From: Polytrichum commune | Taxonomy: Eukaryota; Streptophyta; Polytrichopsida; Polytrichales; Polytrichaceae | Direction of reading: 5' to 3' | NCBI GenBank assembly: GCA_950295325.1 | Contig: OX485804.1 | Span: 7,502,001-7,566,000, forward strand | DNA: 64,000 nucleotides | Part shown: positions 34,540-61,885 of the stretch, piece by piece | Numbering within the stretch: the stretch's first letter is position 1 | Layout of the letters: each line of letters opens with the position of its first letter | The notes under the pieces: model-generated | Told to the model about the DNA's origin: nothing | Database searches by the model: none | Seen by the model: the letters and a program-made list of their open reading frames with translations, nothing else | Made by a program: the position numbers and the translations under genes

Positions 34540-36099
34540 GACCCATAAATAAAAATAAAAACATACATGTCTATCTACATTGGTGGGAATAATACATAAA
34601 TTTGGGAAAATTGACCATTTAAGACCCATCTCTCTCTCTATATATATATATATGCATATATCTATCTATGTGTGTGTGTGTGTATCTACGTTGGTGGGAA
34701 TAATACATAAATTTGGATGTCCTAGAAGTTTCGGATCACCCAGTTAGTCCGACGATCGACGAGAAGTGGCGACCCAACCTTTTTATGTTCAAAGGGAAGT
34801 AGCGCCTCCAACAGGTTCTGTTGAGGCGATAGTGGAAGTTTCTAGAGCCTCCTCGAAAACCTTCTTCTTCTCCTGCTCCTCCTCCTTCTTCACAACGCCT
34901 GCCTCCGGAAACGCTCCAACATTCTCTCTCGCACTCGCTCGCTCTCGATCGCGCGCTCTCCTCTTTGCGTTGCCGCTGTACCTTAAGGTGACGTATTGCT
35001 CATGGAAAAAACCATCCATCTTGAACCACCTGCCATTTGGGACATCTGGTCTGTCTGTCTGTCGGTAGGTCAAATGCTCTGAAGTGTTTCTCCTGGTGAT
35101 TGTAATTACAGGAGCCGCCTTCATCGTCCGTGCTTTAGTTTGATGACTGTGCGTGCGTGTGTCTCTTATGTGTGTTCCCTAAATGGTTTGGTTCTGTATG
35201 CTGATGATGTTTGTGTAGGGAAGGAGGTTTGGTTTTGGTCGGGGATTGTGTTAGGGTTGGAGGGCATGGGGTGTGGTTTGTGGTAATGTGATGTGATGTG
35301 ACGTGATGTGATGTAATGCAATGGCCGCGGTGTTTTGATGATCGATGATATTGTCGTTGAGGTTTTTGGCGGTGGGAAAGAAACGGTGGCTGCACGATAT
35401 GGATCGAATGCATGTACGGGGCCGAGGGGTTTTTGAAGTTGTTTGTCCAGAGGTTTAGGTGACATTTGAGGGCGGGAGGGGTCAAGAATGATGTTATCTT
35501 GATGCGTCTTTGAACTGTTGCTGCATAAAATTGGTTCATCCTAGCGGGACGTAGGTCGGCAATATGTGCTGCAGGATCGGTTCAGAAGGTGTTATGTTTA
35601 TGGAGGACCATACTAATGCGTTTTGAGGTTTGGAGAAGGAAATTGGGTATGAGAGAGATGGACAGGTGTTGACTGGCACTGAGAGGCTATGTCGGAGGAT
35701 TTGAAACTAAGAATTGCATGGAAGTGGTTGTTTTGTCGAAAGGCATTTTTATTTATTTAAAATCTGCTGTTGTCCCGCCGTATGATGATGTCTGTACTCT
35801 CCAAAAGTGTCATATTCGTGATTGTTGGCCGTGTGTTTGTGGGTTGTGCTTGGTAAAATGAGTGCTTCTCTTCATTGCCAACCTACAGTTGTTTGACCTT
35901 TTTAGTGATTTTCCGGTAGTAAGTGTTTGTGAAACAGTGCTCAGCTCAATGGATAATACAAAACATTCTGATGAATGCAATGCCAAGGAATGTTGAAAGT
36001 CTATTGGATGGGTTTTAATGTATGCAATGGTGCTAAAATCCAATTCCTGGTGCGATGCTGCAGAGCCCCCATTTTGTGTAGATTCGCCTGCGTCAAGAC
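34540..36099 (+). promoter_or_regulatory. Promoter and 5' UTR region of the FKBP gene
   Basis: A direct repeat ('ttggtgggaataatacataa' at about 34580 and 34690) flanks a (CT)/(TA)/(GT) simple-sequence tract at about 34630-34685 that includes a TATATATA stretch. A CT-rich leader-like block follows (34850-34960), then a GT-rich stretch with GATGT pentamers (35281-35318). A leader intron is likely, since a donor-like AAG/GTGACG lies near 34988 and an acceptor-like CTGCAG near 36058-36063 precedes the start codon. Neither is proven. Open frames here on both strands have no family match. Confidence 0.4.
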
Positions 36100-39000
36100 A
36101 TGGCCGACGATTTTGAGATTCCAGATGCCGAGGAGGTTGAGGAAACAGGAGAGGAAGTTGAGTATGAGCCTCCAAAGGAAGGATCGGTGCAGGAGTTGGT
36201 GAAAGGCGGAGGGTTGAAGAAGCTTCTTGTCAAGCTTGGAGAAGGATGGGAGACTCCTGACACAGGCGATGAAGTAAAGGGTGAGTCGCGATCTTGAATT
36301 CAAGGACACTCTCATAATTCTCTGGACGTTGCTTGCAGGTGGAAATGTCTAGAAGATGGAGACTTGAGGTAGATGGGCCTTATTTGATCTCTTATTGTTG
36401 TTGCTACCTTATACTGTTCTCATTCGCGAGGTTGAAATTCAAGTGCGTCCGCAAGTGTATTTGAAGAAGCTAGGGTCAATCTCAGAAAGTTTTGGAGCTA
36501 ATTTCGAATTGTTATGAAATATCAAAGTCCACTGACATTGAGCCTTAAGAAGGCCACGTATATCCTCCCCACTTATGTTTAAGATTGAGCCTAGAATGAT
36601 GACCAACCTAGCCCAATCTCTTTCAAACACGTCTTTATGGTGTCCGTTCTTAGATATGCACCGAACCATCCACCAACCAAATATAGGTGTCCAATTAAGA
36701 TTAGTAGCCGAAATATGCCCGCTTGCTGTAGGTTACTTCTTCGTCCTTGAGCTTCAATGGCTTTCAACTATAGTCCAGTTTCCATGAGAAATGTTATTAG
36801 CACCATTTAGCGGGAAGTATGTAAAGTAGACCAGTCCATTTAGCCATTGATCTCATATGTATTGTGTTGCCCTGTAGCAGGACGATGAAAGTATATATTG
36901 AAAGAGTGCTATTTAATAGCAATCAAAGAGTCGCGTATCATTTTCCAAGGGTGTCATTAGTCCAGCTCAATCTATAACATGTTGATTTACTGGTTGTGCA
37001 GTGCATTATACTGGCACACTGTTGGATGGGACAAAGTTTGATTCAAGCCGTGACAGAGAAGAACCTTTCGTCTTCAAATTGGGCCAAGGTTTGTCTCAGA
37101 AATCCGGACACCTCTGACTTGTTGGATTTGCGGATCTGGTGTAACTCTGCCAGATGAACTCCATATTTGTGATTTGTGCATTCCCACTGTTTTTGGCTCT
37201 TCAGTCCTTCAGTCTGGCATTTTATGTCGTTGAGAATACAGCTTTGTATTGACAGATATCAGGATGATTTCTAGGTGTATTTTCTGTGTGCACATTAAAT
37301 TGGAAGTACATTACATTGAAATGCATCTTTGTGTTCTCCAAGTGATGCGAAGTAACACGATCAAATATTGAATAAAACAGGGAATGTGATAAAGGGATGG
37401 GACAAGGGTGTGGCAACCATGAAAAAGGGCGAGATAGCCACATTCACAATCGCTCCTGAGTATGCCTATGGCGCATCTGGTTCCGGTGGGACCATTCCAC
37501 CAAATGCAACACTTAAGTTCGACGTGGAGCTCCTGTCATGGGCCAGTGTGAAAGACATTTGCAAAGATGGTGGTATAATCAAGAAGCAACTAGTTGAAGG
37601 GAAAAAGTGGGAGATGCCCAAGGATGCAGATGAAGTGCTAGGTAAATTCTTTTGGAATGCTCGAGATAAAAGATTTCGGATTTAGTTTCTCGTTATTACT
37701 CCTTTATAAGGTGATGATGTCTTGGTTCGAACTGTGTCAATCTTCAGTGGTTGGTACTTGTGAGGAGTGATGTGAACTGCAGAGGGTTTAAGACCAACTT
37801 CGTGAGCACGGTGAGGAGATGAGTTATTATCCTGAAACGATTCTATGAACATTTCTCGGAACACTTTCTGATGGTTTGGTATGCTAATTGCAGTGAGGTT
37901 TGAGGCAAAGCTGCAGGACGGGAGAGTTGTGGCCAAGTCTCCTGAAGCTGGCGTTGAGTTTACAGTAGAAAAGGGTATGTCGCTTCTTCCTCCTACCGTT
38001 TAGGTCCTTCAGCGAATCTAAACGTCTGCACATGTATATGTTGCATTTGCAAGGTTTTATATCCATCCAGTATATTGCTCAACGTGTTTGATTTGTGCTT
38101 GACAGGATACTTCTGTCCTGCACTCAGCATCGCTGTGAAGACCATGAAGAAGGAAGAGAAAGCACTTCTCACAGTGAAACCTCAATGTAAGTGTCCACTG
38201 TACAATGCTAGTGTTATCTGGTTCTGGATTATTGTGGAGATTGACAGTAACAATATCTCAATGTAACTGTAAAAGGAAGACATGCTTTACAGCCTCTTTA
38301 CCTGTATCTCGTTGTTTGACACATGTACCTCAAGTGGCAGTTGTACATGCATGTCCGTTTTGCTAAGATGTGTCGTTCTGATTTTGGGTAACAGATGGTT
38401 TTGGAGTGAAAGGACAAGCTCCTACTGAAGATTGCGCTGCCATTCCGGCAGAGGCTACCCTTCTGATTGAACTGGAACTAATTTCGTGGAAAGTAGTGGA
38501 GGATATTACTCCAGATAAAAAAGTGATTAAGAAAGTTTTGAAGGCTGGAGAGGGTTATGAAAAGCCCAACGATGGATCGACTGTGAAATGTGAGCCAACT
38601 TGTTGGATGCAACCCTTTTTAATTGTAGATGCGTGGGTTGCTTTTGGAAGATCTCTCTAGTGAAGAGTAGTAGGGGTTCAGCTACTTTCTCAAGTTGCAT
38701 GCCTATGGTTAAAATTCTGTATTGAGCAATTGCGTTCCTGGCTTATTTCTGGGTTCTAATTACCTAGAATCGATTTATCACACTCCAGTAATCAAATTGA
38801 AGTGCTGAAAAAATATGTGCAGTGAGATACGTGGCCAAGTTGGAAGATGGAACGATTTTTGACAAGAAAGGACATGATGGGGCGGAATTGTTCGAGTTTG
38901 TGACAGATGAAGGTGTTTAATGGCACTTTATTTTAATCCTCTACAACATACCATTCTTTCATAGCCAGTAAGAGGTTCCTGGATCAAACTGATTTCCATA

Positions 39001-40737
39001 CTGCGGTGGTAGTGTGGAAAGTGCTGTGGTACTTTCTATTGTCGGGGATCCTCTATTGGTGATGCTGGCCATCTCTTCTGACGGCATGTCTGATATTTTT
39101 TTGTTCTCTTTTTTTCTTTTTGGATAGAACAAGTCATTGAGGGACTCGACAAGACAGTGGCGTCAATGAAGAAGGGTGAAGTTGCTGTAGTCAGAATTTC
39201 TCCTGAATATGGGTTTGGAGGAGCAGAGACCAAAAGGGCCTTGGGAACAGTCCCTCCCAATAGTGCTCTAATTTATGAATTGGAGCTTGTGGAGTTCAGC
39301 AAGGTAAGCTTCTTAAGAAATTACTTTTATCAAGTTTCACATTGTTTTGTTGTCCTGGAAACTTGAGATTTTCAACTATGCTCACTGTATTTGGTGCAAA
39401 ATCACCTCTTTCAGGCCTCATTCATTTGCTAAGTAATACATGTGCCCCTTTCGGGATACATCCAATACATAGGTTATGTGTTATTCAATGCTGAGATCAG
39501 TTGGCCTATTTGGACAGGAGAAGGAATCTTGGGATTTGGAAACACCTGAGAAACTGGAAACTGCTGCATTGAGGAAGGAAGAGGGCAATGCACTTTTCAA
39601 GCTTGGGAAATATGTTCGTGCTGCAAAGAAGTATGAAAAGGTGAGGTTGATCTGAATTTTTTCTATAATTAAGTAAAGCCTCTACGGTAGGCATTTGTGA
39701 GAGAACTACTGTGGAGAGAACTGAATAAAGTTATCACCAGCAGCTTGTTGTCTGTTTCCCTCTTGTATTCATTGGTGAGTGGTCACGAATTGTCTCCTAC
39801 ATGTCACTTGTTCATGGTTGTATACTGGAGATTGAGCTTTTACTGGTTTTCTTTTTGTAAAGTCAGGTTAGAGATTCTCTGTTGTAGGTAGTGCACCCAA
39901 GTTGGGTTCCTTGTCATGTGGGATTCAGTTCATCAAATTAAGTTGTGGTGTGATTTGCAACATGGTCAGGCTGTCAAGTTGATAGAGTATGATAGCAGCT
40001 TCGAAGAAGAACACAAGAAGCAAGCAAAGGCTCTGAAGGTCAGCTGCAACCTGAACATGGCCGCATGCAAGTTGAAGTTGCACGATTACAAGGAGGCAGT
40101 GAAATTGACAACAAAGGTGGGTTAAGCTGGCAATGTCCTGTTTTAGACAAGCAATTTGAGTACTTATTTTGTGCGCTGAAAGTGTTCTTACAAACGTGAA
40201 AATGCACTGTGCTTGATAGGCTTTGGAGCTGGAATCATCAAATGTCAAAGCCCTATTTAGGAGAGCTCAAGGATATATTGGAACTTTAGATCTAGATTAT
40301 GCCGAAACAGATATCAAGAAAGCCCTGGAATTGGACCCTCAGAACAGAGAGGTCAAGTTGGAATACAAGCTGTTGAAGCAAAAGCAAGTGGAACAGAATA
40401 AGAAAGAAGCAAAGCTGTATGGGAACATGTTTGCTCGCCTCAGTAAATTGGAAGCTACAGAAAAGGTGAAGAAATAGTTGCATAGATATGAAGAGTGATC
40501 TGTTATTCCTAATAGCGTGAGTTGGTTAGGATCTACAGTTGTGAAGATTATGGAAGAGAAACCTGCAAAGATTACAGGAGTTCATGCAGATGCTTGGTCT
40601 TGTGAAGACGACTAAATAGTTCTTGTTAAATTCAATTAACAATATTTTTGTGTGCTGGCTGACAGAAACCAGTGACAAATGGTAAAGCTGAGAAGATTGT
40701 TGAAGTTGATCCAGTGGCCATGGATACAGCTGCATAG
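36100..40737 (+). CDS. FKBP-type peptidyl-prolyl isomerase with TPRs, ROF1/ROF2 (FKBP62/65) type, 12 exons, 579 aa
   Basis: Coding exons: 36100-36280, 37002-37088, 37381-37641, 37894-37974, 38106-38186, 38395-38589, 38823-38912, 39128-39303, 39518-39640, 39970-40116, 40220-40465 and 40666-40737. All introns are GT-AG, and phases agree throughout. After an acidic N-terminus come FKBP domain 1 (~45-143), domain 2 (~174-262), domain 3 (~293-382), three TPRs (~402-520) and a lysine-rich helix (~524-545) like the calmodulin-binding part of plant homologues. Domain 1 keeps the FKBP12-type pocket (Y63, F73, D74, F85, V92, I93, W96, Y119, F136), so it should be an active isomerase. In domains 2 and 3 the key Trp is Leu (L210, L332), as is usual for ROF proteins. 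The TPR carboxylate clamp (K404, N408, N454, K484, R488) predicts binding to the HSP90/HSP70 C-terminus. Arabidopsis relatives act in heat tolerance. A partial copy lies at about 60.25 kb. Confidence 0.95.
36545..36735 (-). repeat. Family E fragment inside FKBP intron 1
   Basis: 'cctccccacttatgtttaag', 'gcccaatctctttcaaacac', 'gtctttatggtgtccgttct' and 'ataggtgtccaattaagat' match the promoter-distal half of inverted E copies. It accounts for part of the 721-bp length of intron 1, the longest intron of the coding region. Confidence 0.65.
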
Positions 40738-41625
40738 CCAATAGGTCTAGTTGAAAGCTAGTGCCTTGTCATTGAGGAAGATCAAGAAACACATGTAACA
40801 AGTGTTTTGTGCTTACAATGTAATGGTCATTTGAGGTTTAGGAGGTTATTTTGGCAGTCCTTCAGTTTTGATCTCAAGGTATAGATGCATGACCAAAACT
40901 TTGAAAGTACTCCTAGAACTTAATATTCACTAACTTTTAAATGTGTATGCTTGGGTTGCTTGGAAGATTTCGCGTATTGTCCTCGTTGTTTCTATTATGG
41001 AGATAACTCCATGAACAATTTTTGGCCATTGAATTGGATTGGGAATTGTTTGATCTGGTTCGCAAATCAATTAACATGAGCATTCCAAGTGTCAGTTTTG
41101 CTTCGAGGTGCAAACATGGAGGAAGTGAAAGTGAAGATTCTCTTTCCACCCTTTGAAGCCTTGTACTATTCATAGTCCAATAGAATTTACAATTTATGTA
41201 TTTTTTACATTAAAAGATGTGTTATGAAATGATGTTTCCAAGGGTCTATTAGAAATCCTGTGGCATAATTGGCAATTTTGCCTCAATTCCCAAGTCACTT
41301 TGATCCTTGCAATCTCAGTTGAGACTTCCAAAGCCCGAAGGGCGAAGAGTGACGTGCATGTCTACGTGGCAGCACTTTTTGGAGGCGAGGCTTGGGACTT
41401 GTGTTGAGAGTTGGGTCGGTGCAAGTGCTGATTTTTCTTTGCATACATTAATCAAGATTCCACTTCAATGAATATGGACCATATTATAATGATTTCTTGA
41501 GGCTCAATCTTTAAAGTACTGGAATATGATCAAAGTTGGGATTGCATCTCAATCAGGCCGGAACCAATAATGCCATGACACATGTCCGTGGAGTCATGAG
41601 TTGTCATGGCAGACTCTAGATATTG
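40738..41625 (+). other. 3' UTR and downstream flank of the FKBP gene
   Basis: The first ~220 bp is shared with the decayed copy at 61655-61885, so it was part of the duplicated unit and is probably transcribed. No canonical AATAAA is obvious. Nothing else is recognised before the pogo-like element. Confidence 0.5.
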
Positions 41626-41628
41626 GTA

Positions 41629-57479: not shown

Positions 57480-57990
57480 AAGAGCGCACGCTCATTCTCC
57501 TAATGAAAGTTAACGTGGGTCACAAGGAATCTCAACTCGCGCTAAATTTCTCGTAGAAAATTAGCGTGGGTCACATTATTTTGGTTTTTTCTTTAGAAAT
57601 TTAAAGTGGAATAATGTTCAATGTCTTGGTTGGAAGTCTTCGTGAGGATTGAGTCGAAGTCTTGGACCTACAATCGGGGAGAACCAACAGTTAGTTAACA
57701 GATGAACCGGTTGAATTTGAGAACTAGCTGGTTGAAGTTCAAGACTGCATGAAAATTACCGACCATTTTAGAGGAATTTATAGAATACACCCCAATTTAA
57801 TAAAGGAGAACCGAAGGATGTCAACATGTAACGGGTTGGACTTGCAAACACTAGGAGGATCTCAACCGGTGATGCCCGAAAATCCTCCCCGATCATTATT
57901 TTGGACCCATGTTATTTCCACCTTGAAATTAGTGTGGCCCACGTTAATTACTTCCACACTAACTTTCCACCCGCAGTAAAATTAGTGTGG
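57480..57990. repeat. Family F repeat split by a family A element
   Basis: 57480-57668 ('aaagttaacgtgggtcac', 'ggaagtcttcgtgaggattg') and 57901-57990 ('gttatttccacc', 'attagtgtggcccacgtta', 'cacactaactttccaccc') are the two halves. The family A element lies between. Confidence 0.6.
57662..57907 (-). mobile_element. Family A MITE with TTGGACC TSD
   Basis: A complete 232-bp inverted A copy (57669-57900) is flanked by TTGGACC at 57662-57668 and 57901-57907. With one mismatch allowed the duplication can be read as 9 bp. Both ends hold GGGGAG or its inverse, CTCCCC, a few bases in ('caatcggggag' / 'ctccccgatca'), which is a weak terminal inverted repeat. Confidence 0.7.
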
Positions 57991-58777: not shown

Positions 58778-60193
58778 ATGATGGAAAGCGGGGGATTCGC
58801 ACGGCCCGAGGCCGAGATCTCGCTGTTTCATTCCATACAGATAGCAGAGGAGCACGTGCCATCACGACCGGTGGAAGCATCAGAGGGGCTGTCGGAGCAG
58901 CAGCAGCAGGAGGCGGCGCAGGTGTTGTCTGGGAATCCGAGCGCCGTGCGGGCTGCGGTGTCGTCGGGGGAATGCTGTAGGCGGGAAGTAGAGGAGATGA
59001 CGGACACGGAGGAAAGAGGAGGAGGAGGCGTGTGGGGAGAGGAGCAAGAAGAAGGGGAGCGAGGTCGGGCGAGGGATCTTCGACGGAGGAGCAAGAACTG
59101 GACAGTAGAGGAGACGCAGCAGCTCATTCGCTTGCGCACGCAGATAGAGCCTCGGTGGCAAAAGACGAGCAAGAAGACGGAGCTGTGGTGGGAAATTGCG
59201 GAGGCCTTGCAGCGGGAGAACATGCTTCGAGGAGAACACATGTTCCGAGATGCCAGGAGTTGCAGTGTGAAGTGGGAGAAACTCATGGCCGGGTACAAAG
59301 ATGTTCGCGACGGGCTGAAACCCCAGAAGGAGAATCCCTTCTACGACGAACTGATGCTGCTCATGACTGGGAAGTCCACGACGAACATGAAGCGGGAGCG
59401 CGCGGGAATGGAAGGGGATGTTTGCAGCAGCGGGCAGCACAAGGAAGGGTTGACGGAATCGGCCGCGGAATTACCCCAGGGCACGGTGCTGGAGGGAGGG
59501 AGTCCGGCGACGGAGAAGGAAGGATTGGACTCTGCAGTGTACGAGGACACCGAGGGACCCAGCAGGAAGAAGGCACGAGGGGGAGGGCCGGAGCACAAAA
59601 GCCCCGTGGCTGACATGGCGGCAGCAGTGGAGAGGACGTTGGAGACGCTCCTGACGCGTCAGCAGAACATTTTCAGAGAATTTCTGGAATCCATGGAAGA
59701 AAAGGAGCAGAAGCGGCAGGAGAAGGAAGACAAGTGGAGGGCGGAGGAGCGAGCGCAGCGCGACCTGCTGAACAATGCCTTGTTGGTGCTGACGCACAAA
59801 CTGGTGGGCGACCCCATCGGCGTGAGAATGCCGGAGGCGCCGAAGCCAGCCCCGGCCGTGGTGAGTAGCCCAGAAATCGTGGCGAAGCGATCGAGCGTTT
59901 GCAGGCAGCGGGACAAGAATTGGAAACGGGCGGAGGTGCTGCAACTGATCAAACTGCGAGGCGAGATGGACGTCCGGTTTCTGAAGCAAATGCGCAAGGC
60001 GCCACTGTGGGAGGAGATTGGCGGGTGCCTGTCTGCGCAGGGAATCAAGCGCGACGGGAAGCAGTGCAGAGAGAAGTGGGACAAGCTGATACAGGAGTTC
60101 AAGGATGTGACGGAGGGCAAGCGCGATCGTCGCACCAGCGTGTACTATGGTCCTCTGATTCCAATACTCGGGCGACCAGAGAAAGCGCAATAA
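58778..60193 (+). CDS. Trihelix (GT-2-like) transcription factor, two Myb/SANT-like domains, intronless, 471 aa
   Basis: An uninterrupted frame, with ATG at 58778 chosen because the frame upstream opens only at a TTG; a second ATG follows at once. Two trihelix domains are visible, at residues ~102-197 and ~381-465. Each has the three spaced tryptophans of the family: W108, W138 (preceded by W137) and W166; then W382, W411 and W434. Between them are a basic nuclear-localisation-like patch (PSRKKARG, ~261-268) and a long charged helix (~287-340) like the central coiled coil of GT-2 proteins, used for dimerisation. The N-terminal ~100 residues are acidic and Gly/Gln-rich. The plan matches plant GT-2-type DNA-binding regulators; target genes cannot be told. 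The gene is visibly GC-rich, unlike the AT-rich surroundings. Its stop lies only ~50-65 bp before a decayed FKBP copy, so its 3' UTR should consist of pseudogene sequence. Confidence 0.88.
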   Translation: MMESGGFARPEAEISLFHSIQIAEEHVPSRPVEASEGLSEQQQQEAAQVLSGNPSAVRAAVSSGECCRREVEEMTDTEERGGGGVWGEEQEEGERGRARDLRRRSKNWTVEETQQLIRLRTQIEPRWQKTSKKTELWWEIAEALQRENMLRGEHMFRDARSCSVKWEKLMAGYKDVRDGLKPQKENPFYDELMLLMTGKSTTNMKRERAGMEGDVCSSGQHKEGLTESAAELPQGTVLEGGSPATEKEGLDSAVYEDTEGPSRKKARGGGPEHKSPVADMAAAVERTLETLLTRQQNIFREFLESMEEKEQKRQEKEDKWRAEERAQRDLLNNALLVLTHKLVGDPIGVRMPEAPKPAPAVVSSPEIVAKRSSVCRQRDKNWKRAEVLQLIKLRGEMDVRFLKQMRKAPLWEEIGGCLSAQGIKRDGKQCREKWDKLIQEFKDVTEGKRDRRTSVYYGPLIPILGRPEKAQ

Positions 60194-60249
60194 TAACAAC
60201 GAAGACTCCCTATCCCATGCGGCACTTCGTCGTCATGCATCGGTAGACG

Positions 60250-61885
60250 GAAAATCTCGCAAAGCTGCATGACGGAAGAGTTTCGAGCAAGCCTCCCGAA
60301 ACCGGCATTGGAAGATGGTGTGTGTTGTCATCCGGCTACCTCCTTTGGCAATGCGTGTAGAACTGCTGCCGGAGGTGACGTCCTCCAGTGGCTCTAAAGT
60401 ACTGGTCACATTTGTGTGTTGCATTTTCAAGATTTTTGGTTATGATCGTACCGATTTTGAGTTCATCCAGTGTATTGCTGAACGTGGTTGTTTTGTTTGG
60501 GACAGGATTCTTTTACCTGCATCGAGCATTCCCGTGGAGACCATGAAGAAGGAAGAGATAGTCCTCCTAACAGGGAAACCTGAATGTAAGTGTACAGTGC
60601 ACAGAGTGCTGGTGTTATCTGGATGTGGATCGTGGTAGAGATGATGACCTGAATGTGAGCGGAGGAAGATGAAATGCTTTTCAGGTTCTTCTGTACTTGT
60701 ATCGTGTTCTTTGAGACATCTACCTGGAGTGGGATGTTCTGATGCCGTTACCAGCAGTTGTAAAAGTGTGTTTGTTTCGATGAGATGTGTCGTTCTGATT
60801 TTGTGTAACAGGTGATTTCGTAGGCAGAGGACGAGGACCTACTAAAGATTGCGGCTTTATTCCGTGAGGGGGCAATTTTCTCATTGAACTGGAACTTATG
60901 TCGTGGAAACTAGGATGAGATTAGTCAGATGGAAAAGAGATTAAGAAGGTTTGTGAGGCTGGAATCGGGTTCCGGAAAGGCCGATATTGGGATCATCTCA
61001 GAAATGTGAGCCGACTTCTCTCATATGACCCTTTTCAACCCTAGAATTATAGGCTTCTTTCGAAGAACCGTACTGAAGAGTTGTAGGGGTTGAGCTGGTT
61101 TTTGGAGTTGAATGTGGATGGTTGTGATTCTGCAGTGATCAACTGTTTCCCTGGCTTACTGTCAATGCATTGGGCTCTGGTCACCTGGAATCGATCCATC
61201 ACTCATTTGTAATAATTTGAATTGCTTAAAAACATGTGCAGTGATACATGCGGCCAAGTTCTAGGAGCTCTAGAAGAGCTCAAGGATATGTTGGGAACTG
61301 TACAGCGTAAAAAAGAAGTGAAGCTAATCAGGCACATGTTTTCTTACGTCAGCAAATTGGAAGCTGAAGAAATGCGAGGAAATAGTTGCGTTGGGAGATT
61401 ATTCATGTATATAATCGAAGGCCAGGATTTGGTTAGGAGCTACAGTTTTGAAGAAAGAGCATGATAGACAAATTTTGCACGGATTACAGTAGTTTGTGAA
61501 ATGTCATGCAGATGCTTGGGTATTGTGAAGATGAGGTTGAGTCTATGGTGTAGCCTGTAGAGTATTCTATAAACAAAATTGGTGCCTGTTGGTTGACAGG
61601 AACCAATGTGACAATGTTGATGTTAGTCCACTGGACATGGATGTAGCTGCATAGGCAATAGGTTAATTTGCAAGCTAGGGCGCTGTTATTGAGGAAGGAA
61701 TAGAAAACATCTGTTATGAGGCCCTACAATGTAACAATAATCTGTGTTCTCAAAGGATACTTTGACAAAGAATTCAATTTTGGAGCTGATATAAGATTAC
61801 TCAGGTTATGAATGTGTGGATATACAGCCAAAACTTGAAACTGCCTTTGAGATTTTTTATACACTAACTTGGAATGGGTATAAGG
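60250..61885 (+). pseudogene. Partial, intron-bearing duplicate of the ROF-type FKBP gene
   Basis: It follows the gene at 36-41 kb block by block on the same strand: exon 4 (~60255-60318), exon 5 (60506-60585), exon 6 (~60812-61005), the start of exon 7 (61242-~61262), then the middle of exon 11 (~61275-61377), intron 11, exon 12 (61600-61654) and about 230 bp of 3' UTR. Introns 4, 5, 6 and 11 are also recognisable, so this is a DNA duplication and not a retrocopy. Exons 1-3 are missing, and exons 7 (rest) to 11 (start) have been deleted. Exon 5 has lost one base, exon 6 carries stop codons, and exon 12 is shortened. It cannot make the FKBP. Short open frames across it (60315-60638, 61222-61464) are incidental. 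Confidence 0.9.

Follow-up and report, generated by a model that had tools for sequence, protein, structure and literature searches.

Pack-TYPE elements (Pack-CACTA, Pack-hAT and others) are described for several superfamilies in rice and maize in a published account (PMC8903248), which also gives 8-nt target-site duplications for hAT elements. The transposon family reported here resembles the Pack-TYPE elements of that account (PMC8903248) in apparently lacking a transposase of its own, in having terminal inverted repeats (TIRs) and target-site duplications, and in carrying a host gene fragment that has been amplified, and its cargo appears to be a Pack-TYPE-like capture, an event of a known kind whose general features are found here. 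It differs from Pack-TYPE elements in that the fragment most likely comes from an already dead gene copy, which is itself the 3' flank of another gene.

Two other known situations are close to this locus. The dead gene copy resembles a duplicated (unprocessed) pseudogene, in this case of a three-FKBP-domain TPR immunophilin, with its introns, 5' truncation, internal deletion, stop codon and frameshift; unlike an ordinary duplicated FKBP pseudogene, it abuts the stop codon of another gene and is found in both arms of an inverted duplication. Gene conversion between the arms of an inverted duplication is generally known to leave a sharp near-identical block inside older homology on both sides, and such a block is seen here, with the difference that it includes a pseudogene as the flank of the neighboring gene.

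We analysed a window of 64,000 nucleotides of Polytrichum commune (C2:7502001–7566000) and searched the genome (407.8 Mb, 64 contigs). In the explanation that we consider very probable, an old duplicated (not processed) FKBP pseudogene (60259–61698) lies directly downstream of an intronless trihelix gene and would serve this gene passively as 3' flank and 3' UTR, without further function. The unit of trihelix gene and pseudogene would have been duplicated in inverted orientation long ago, and later gene conversion between the two arms would have restored near-identity in the coding region and the adjoining part of the flank. A TIR transposon that leaves 8-bp target-site duplications would have taken up about 450 bp of the pseudogene lineage (a direction that we infer) and carried them to about 48 places, a capture that most likely predates the last sharing of the segment between the two pseudogene copies. 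Read in this way, one locus shows three ways in which a dead gene still circulates: it flanks a living gene, lies in a conversion tract and travels as transposon cargo. The second tail-to-tail copy, the conversion pattern and the transposon capture go beyond the initial annotation of this DNA, and part of the pseudogene turns out to be a dispersed repeat. Table 1 lists the features of the window.

Table 1. Positions of the parent gene, the trihelix gene, the FKBP remnants and the shared segments in the window
Feature	Position	Strand	Remarks
Parent FKBP gene, intact	36100..40737	+	12 exons (gene model of this analysis), 579 aa
Intronless trihelix gene, 471 aa	58778..60193	+	open frame; PF13837 (Myb/SANT-like) twice, E=2e-28
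Inferred gene-conversion tract, shared with the inverted copy	58985..61250	+	from identity bins; edges approximate
FKBP exon 4 remnant	60259..60317	+	79% over 52 bp vs parent 37905-37956
FKBP exon 5 remnant	60506..60585	+	aligned to parent 38106-38186; both splice dinucleotides retained
Segment also carried, whole or in part, inside the TIR transposon family, about 48 places	60647..61066	+	part of intron 5, exon 6, start of intron 6
FKBP exon 6 remnant	60812..61005	+	in-frame TGA, frameshift; both splice dinucleotides retained
FKBP exon 7 start	61242..61270	+	acceptor AG retained; then large internal deletion junction
FKBP exons 11-12 remnant and 3' UTR start	61271..61698	+	exon 11 donor gone; 67% vs parent 40393-40780

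The FKBP-derived flank of the trihelix gene

The gene model of the parent FKBP, which we take to be FKBP62/65-like, gives a single clean open frame, and the protein contains three FKBP_C stretches and TPRs (the closest solved structures are 3jym, an FKBP from wheat, and 3jxv). The parent has a 6.5-kb twin on the same contig, 23 Mb distant (window 35133–41628 vs. L001:816–7313 at C2:30.48 Mb; 97.7% identical). In the joined coding parts, 28 out of 1743 bases differ between parent and twin, with 20 amino-acid changes, many of which (including Trp to Cys) fall in the first FKBP domain; one of the two genes appears to be under relaxed or altered constraint.

The initial annotation had placed a partial duplicate of this gene, introns included, immediately past the stop codon of the trihelix gene, in the orientation of the parent and at a distance of 22 kb from it. 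Alignment of the parent with the flank bears this out: FKBP homology is first seen at 60259, 66 bp past the stop codon, intron homology is present, and the identity to the parent is 66–74% by zone. The exon 4 block alignment itself spans 60259–60310. The longest match, 60464–61260 vs. parent 38064–38841 (70.4% over 815 columns, E=2.6e-100), covers everything from the end of intron 4 to the start of exon 7, with exons 5 and 6 and introns 5 and 6, and is followed by a 32-bp piece (61271–61302 vs. parent 40258–40288, 87.5%) and by 61302–61697 vs. parent 40393–40780 (67%, E=1.2e-28). Exons 1–3 and most of exons 7–11 are absent. Since this homology is collinear, on the same strand and intron-bearing, at 67–88% and with E down to 2.6e-100, chance is ruled out, and since introns 4 (its end), 5 and 6 align, the flank was copied from DNA rather than from mRNA. 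Introns are retained and the reading frame is destroyed, as in unprocessed pseudogenes, and on the strength of these alignments we regard 60259–61698 as confirmed to be a 5'-truncated, internally deleted, frame-broken FKBP copy with introns. The copy had been called dying; with the stop codon and the frameshift in exon 6 and the loss of domains, it is dead, and at this identity to the parent it has been so for a long time.

The annotation had also supposed that the old FKBP splice sites are still available. This holds for the donors of exons 4–6 and the acceptors of exons 5–7, six sites that are all GT or AG in both pseudogene copies (the exon 4 donor GT is retained at 60318 in the window), and fails for the acceptor of exon 4 and the donor of exon 11, which are lost in both. 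With homology starting 66 bp past the stop codon and these sites kept, a read-through trihelix transcript would carry former FKBP sequence with some usable old splice sites, and it is plausible that the trihelix mRNA ends inside the FKBP wreck, which would then be its predicted 3' UTR. If such an mRNA were spliced at the old FKBP sites in its 3' UTR it could become a target of nonsense-mediated decay, and both the position of the first donor, 124 nt past the trihelix stop codon, and the conservation of both splice sites of each of the old introns 4–6 in both copies (6/6 dinucleotides) speak for this. We still consider it unlikely, as the 6 sites kept out of 8 overall are unremarkable at about 73% identity and the two copies are not independent because of conversion.

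The inverted second copy

The unit of trihelix gene and dead FKBP copy is present twice, tail to tail. The second unit is found at C2:7574163–7576601 on the minus strand, 10.9 kb from the end of the similar block, and the frame of its trihelix gene (C2:7575232–7576601, minus strand) is also intact, with 471 aa. Identity between the window copy (copy 1) and copy 2, in 100-bp bins, is 51–86% at 58.0–58.8 kb, 78–87% at 58.8–59.0 kb, 96–100% at 59.0–60.6 kb, 89–97% at 60.6–61.2 kb and 44–74% at 61.2–61.9 kb. FKBP-derived sequence is present in both copies and reaches about 61.7 kb in the window, and the abrupt change of identity lies inside homology on both sides, as expected of a gene-conversion tract. 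The two pseudogene copies agree in 982 out of 1057 columns in 60194–61260 vs. 267 out of 390 in 61300–61700 (Fisher p=2e-29, where neighboring columns are not independent), and codons 59591–60175 of the two trihelix copies show zero differences.

A recent, simple inverted duplication of the unit under selection, without gene conversion, would also account for trihelix copies that are 97% alike across the coding region. It is hard to reconcile with the much stronger divergence of the homologous flanks to the left and right of the similar block and with a synonymous divergence that shifts about ninefold within one coding frame: dS is 0.28 in the first 63 aligned codons vs. 0.030 over the following 402 (8 synonymous changes among about 51 sites vs. 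8 among about 268, Fisher p=0.001; site counts were taken from copy 1, gapped codons included). We therefore regard this duplication scenario as improbable. A near-identical block inside far more diverged homology points to gene conversion within an older inverted duplication, which best explains the uneven identity.

In the 61300–61700 zone, copy 2 equals the parent in 292 out of 374 columns (78%) and copy 1 in 68.5%, and copy 1 agrees with the parent in 66%. As copy 2 agrees better with the parent than with copy 1, there was possibly more than one duplication; the outer parts of the pseudogenes may stem from separate duplications, or copy 1 may have changed faster.

A third intronless trihelix gene (562 aa) is found on another contig (L014:1964–3652, C5). 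The sole match between the 6 kb fetched there and the parent FKBP region is 62 bp long, on the opposite strand, and falls in a part of intron 1 with further copies elsewhere in the window. A repeat at 57672–57900, upstream of the window's trihelix gene, has five further copies in the window (at 3.4–4.1, 22.1, 52.4 and 53.9 kb), which are 75–81% alike, four out of the five being inverted.

A dispersed TIR transposon family and possible small RNAs

Searching the genome with the flank (best 40 of 70 candidates scored), we found the two pseudogenes and at least 38 places with about 60647–61066, at 85–87% identity and spread over all seven large contigs. All ten fetched copies (L004–L013) lie inside a repeat that measures about 2.1 kb (3.1 kb in L010), and these repeat copies are 93.5–97% alike to L004. 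The 2.1-kb element starts with CACGGGGAGGTGAC and finishes with TGTGATCCCCCCGTG, or nearly so; its ends are CACGGGG...CCCCGTG, with imperfect TIRs of about 40 bp. A diagnostic 42-mer of the cargo (at most 3 mismatches) is found at 48 places in the genome and the 5' end of the element alone (at most 3 mismatches) has 219 occurrences, with 0 for the reversed control in either case. For 43 of the 48 cargo places, one of the 5' element ends found is located 643–2367 bp upstream in the matching orientation; out of the five without one, four were fetched (L021, L022, L024 and L025) and all align to the element. The 48 places are not uniform, since in two of the fetched elements (L022 and L023) the FKBP cargo is limited to about 117 bp, beyond which their sequences diverge, and L025 carries cargo that matches the pseudogene at 82%; L022 and L023 appear to be separate rearranged forms of the family.

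Both ends were located in 17 out of 21 fetched elements (four have an end missing). An exact 8-bp target-site duplication is found in 11 of these 17, and 7 of 8 positions match in three more; the remaining three (L008, L021 and L024, with 1, 3 and 5 of 8 matching) show no clear duplication. The longest ORF in element copy L008 is 86 aa, which suggests an element without its own transposase, as judged from ORF lengths in this one copy.

The terminal consensus is YARNG for hAT elements and CANRG for P-type elements. The element ends CACGG depart from YARNG at the third base and fit CANRG, whereas the 8-bp duplication length fits hAT; any assignment to a superfamily would thus be tentative. The hAT dimerisation domain is abundant in the genome (best 150 of 1060 candidates scored), and in the five hAT-transposase loci fetched (L026–L030) we found no exact 9-base end pair together with an exact 8-bp duplication that would mark an autonomous partner, and no link to the element ends. 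A small relative of the element sits at the margin of one of the five loci. The P-element transposase PF12017 has no match in the genome, and none in any of the control genomes either.

Captured fragments have been viewed as siRNA reservoirs that silence their donor genes (a notion in a review, PMC13317346), and the initial annotation had raised pairing of the flank with the parent FKBP mRNA. That suggestion is weakened: 60194–61885 shares just 2 exact 21-mers with parent and twin (both strands), no exact 24-mer is shared with the parent, and 68 21-mer positions match the parent locus with at most 2 mismatches (plus strand only; 0 in a shuffled parent control even at 3 mismatches). Thirteen fetched element copies (both strands) contain 50 exact 21-mers of 60194–61885, and 290 21-mer positions match when up to 2 mismatches are allowed; these counts cover unequal amounts of sequence, and the captured segment makes up 420 of the 1692 bases. 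If there is small-RNA cross-talk, the trihelix flank should thus have the transposon as its partner, and not the parent FKBP, and the antisense idea can now be tested with named partners, i.e., the transposon family and the trihelix 3' flank.

These element matches are what favors a regulatory flank, in which siRNAs from the dispersed transposon copies would pair with the 3' UTR of the trihelix genes and modulate or silence the two genes in trans. We find this improbable too, because perfect matches are few at about 86% identity and there is no sign of constraint: the old exon 6 acceptor position reads AT in 29, AA in 2, AC in 1 and AG in 16 of the 48 cargo places, i.e., the AG is lost in 32. 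Likewise improbable is a reading in which the plant silences the dispersed transposon copies and, via siRNAs matching 60647–61066, thereby also acts in trans on the trihelix mRNAs, with conversion keeping both 3' flanks alike. The reading we prefer remains a passive flank.

Probable capture of the pseudogene segment

The six fetched sister elements with the same 5' end (L015–L020) all lack the insert and are continuous across its site, where the 2.1-kb form is about 770 bp longer. Three of them (L015, L017 and L018) are otherwise undisturbed, at 1.27–1.35 kb; among the six, two hold other insertions and one is cut short. The insert of about 770 bp includes about 450 bp of pseudogene: in L004, 691–1107 matches pseudogene copy 1 (87%) and 659–1107 matches copy 2 (84%), and 9 bp close to the left edge of the captured segment are missing from copy 1.

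The parent FKBP gene was rejected as the source of the cargo. By BLAST, nine element copies are 68–70% identical to the parent vs. 86–87% to pseudogene copy 1 (L006 is 75.6% identical to the parent over a shorter match), and MAFFT alignment of two copies gives 74% vs. 87–88%; cargo and pseudogene also have lesions in common. The pseudogenes and the elements have in common an intron 5 insertion, 22 bp long (21 bp in copy 2), and the exon 6 frameshift, and the exon 6 TGA is common to copy 1 and the five element copies displayed (TGG in copy 2). In a midpoint-rooted tree of 14 fragments, parent and twin are split from both pseudogenes and ten element copies with support of 100/100, the two pseudogenes group together with 99/94, and the elements, drawn open, have 90/91. 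With cargo nearer to the dead copy than to the parent, and with shared lesions, the capture would have been from the dead FKBP lineage, and its source was most likely already dead at the time.

The donor arm cannot be read from the tree, as the two pseudogenes have been mixed by conversion. A genome search with the pseudogene parts to either side of the captured segment found no third locus; it is possible that the source was a lost copy, sister to both pseudogenes. The reverse event, in which 60647–61066 arrived by transposon insertion, would equally make this stretch common to pseudogene and element, but it is very improbable indeed, as no other element sequence matches in the window or in the 16 kb to its right and the pseudogene runs collinear with the parent to either side of the segment.

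Of the 770-bp insert, about 320 bp are not FKBP-derived (L008:2916–3145 and about 100 bp before the cargo). In a search for the source of the 3' part (230 bp of L008), the best 40 of 213 candidates are all at 93–100% and are apparently further copies of the element. The capture may have joined pieces from several places.
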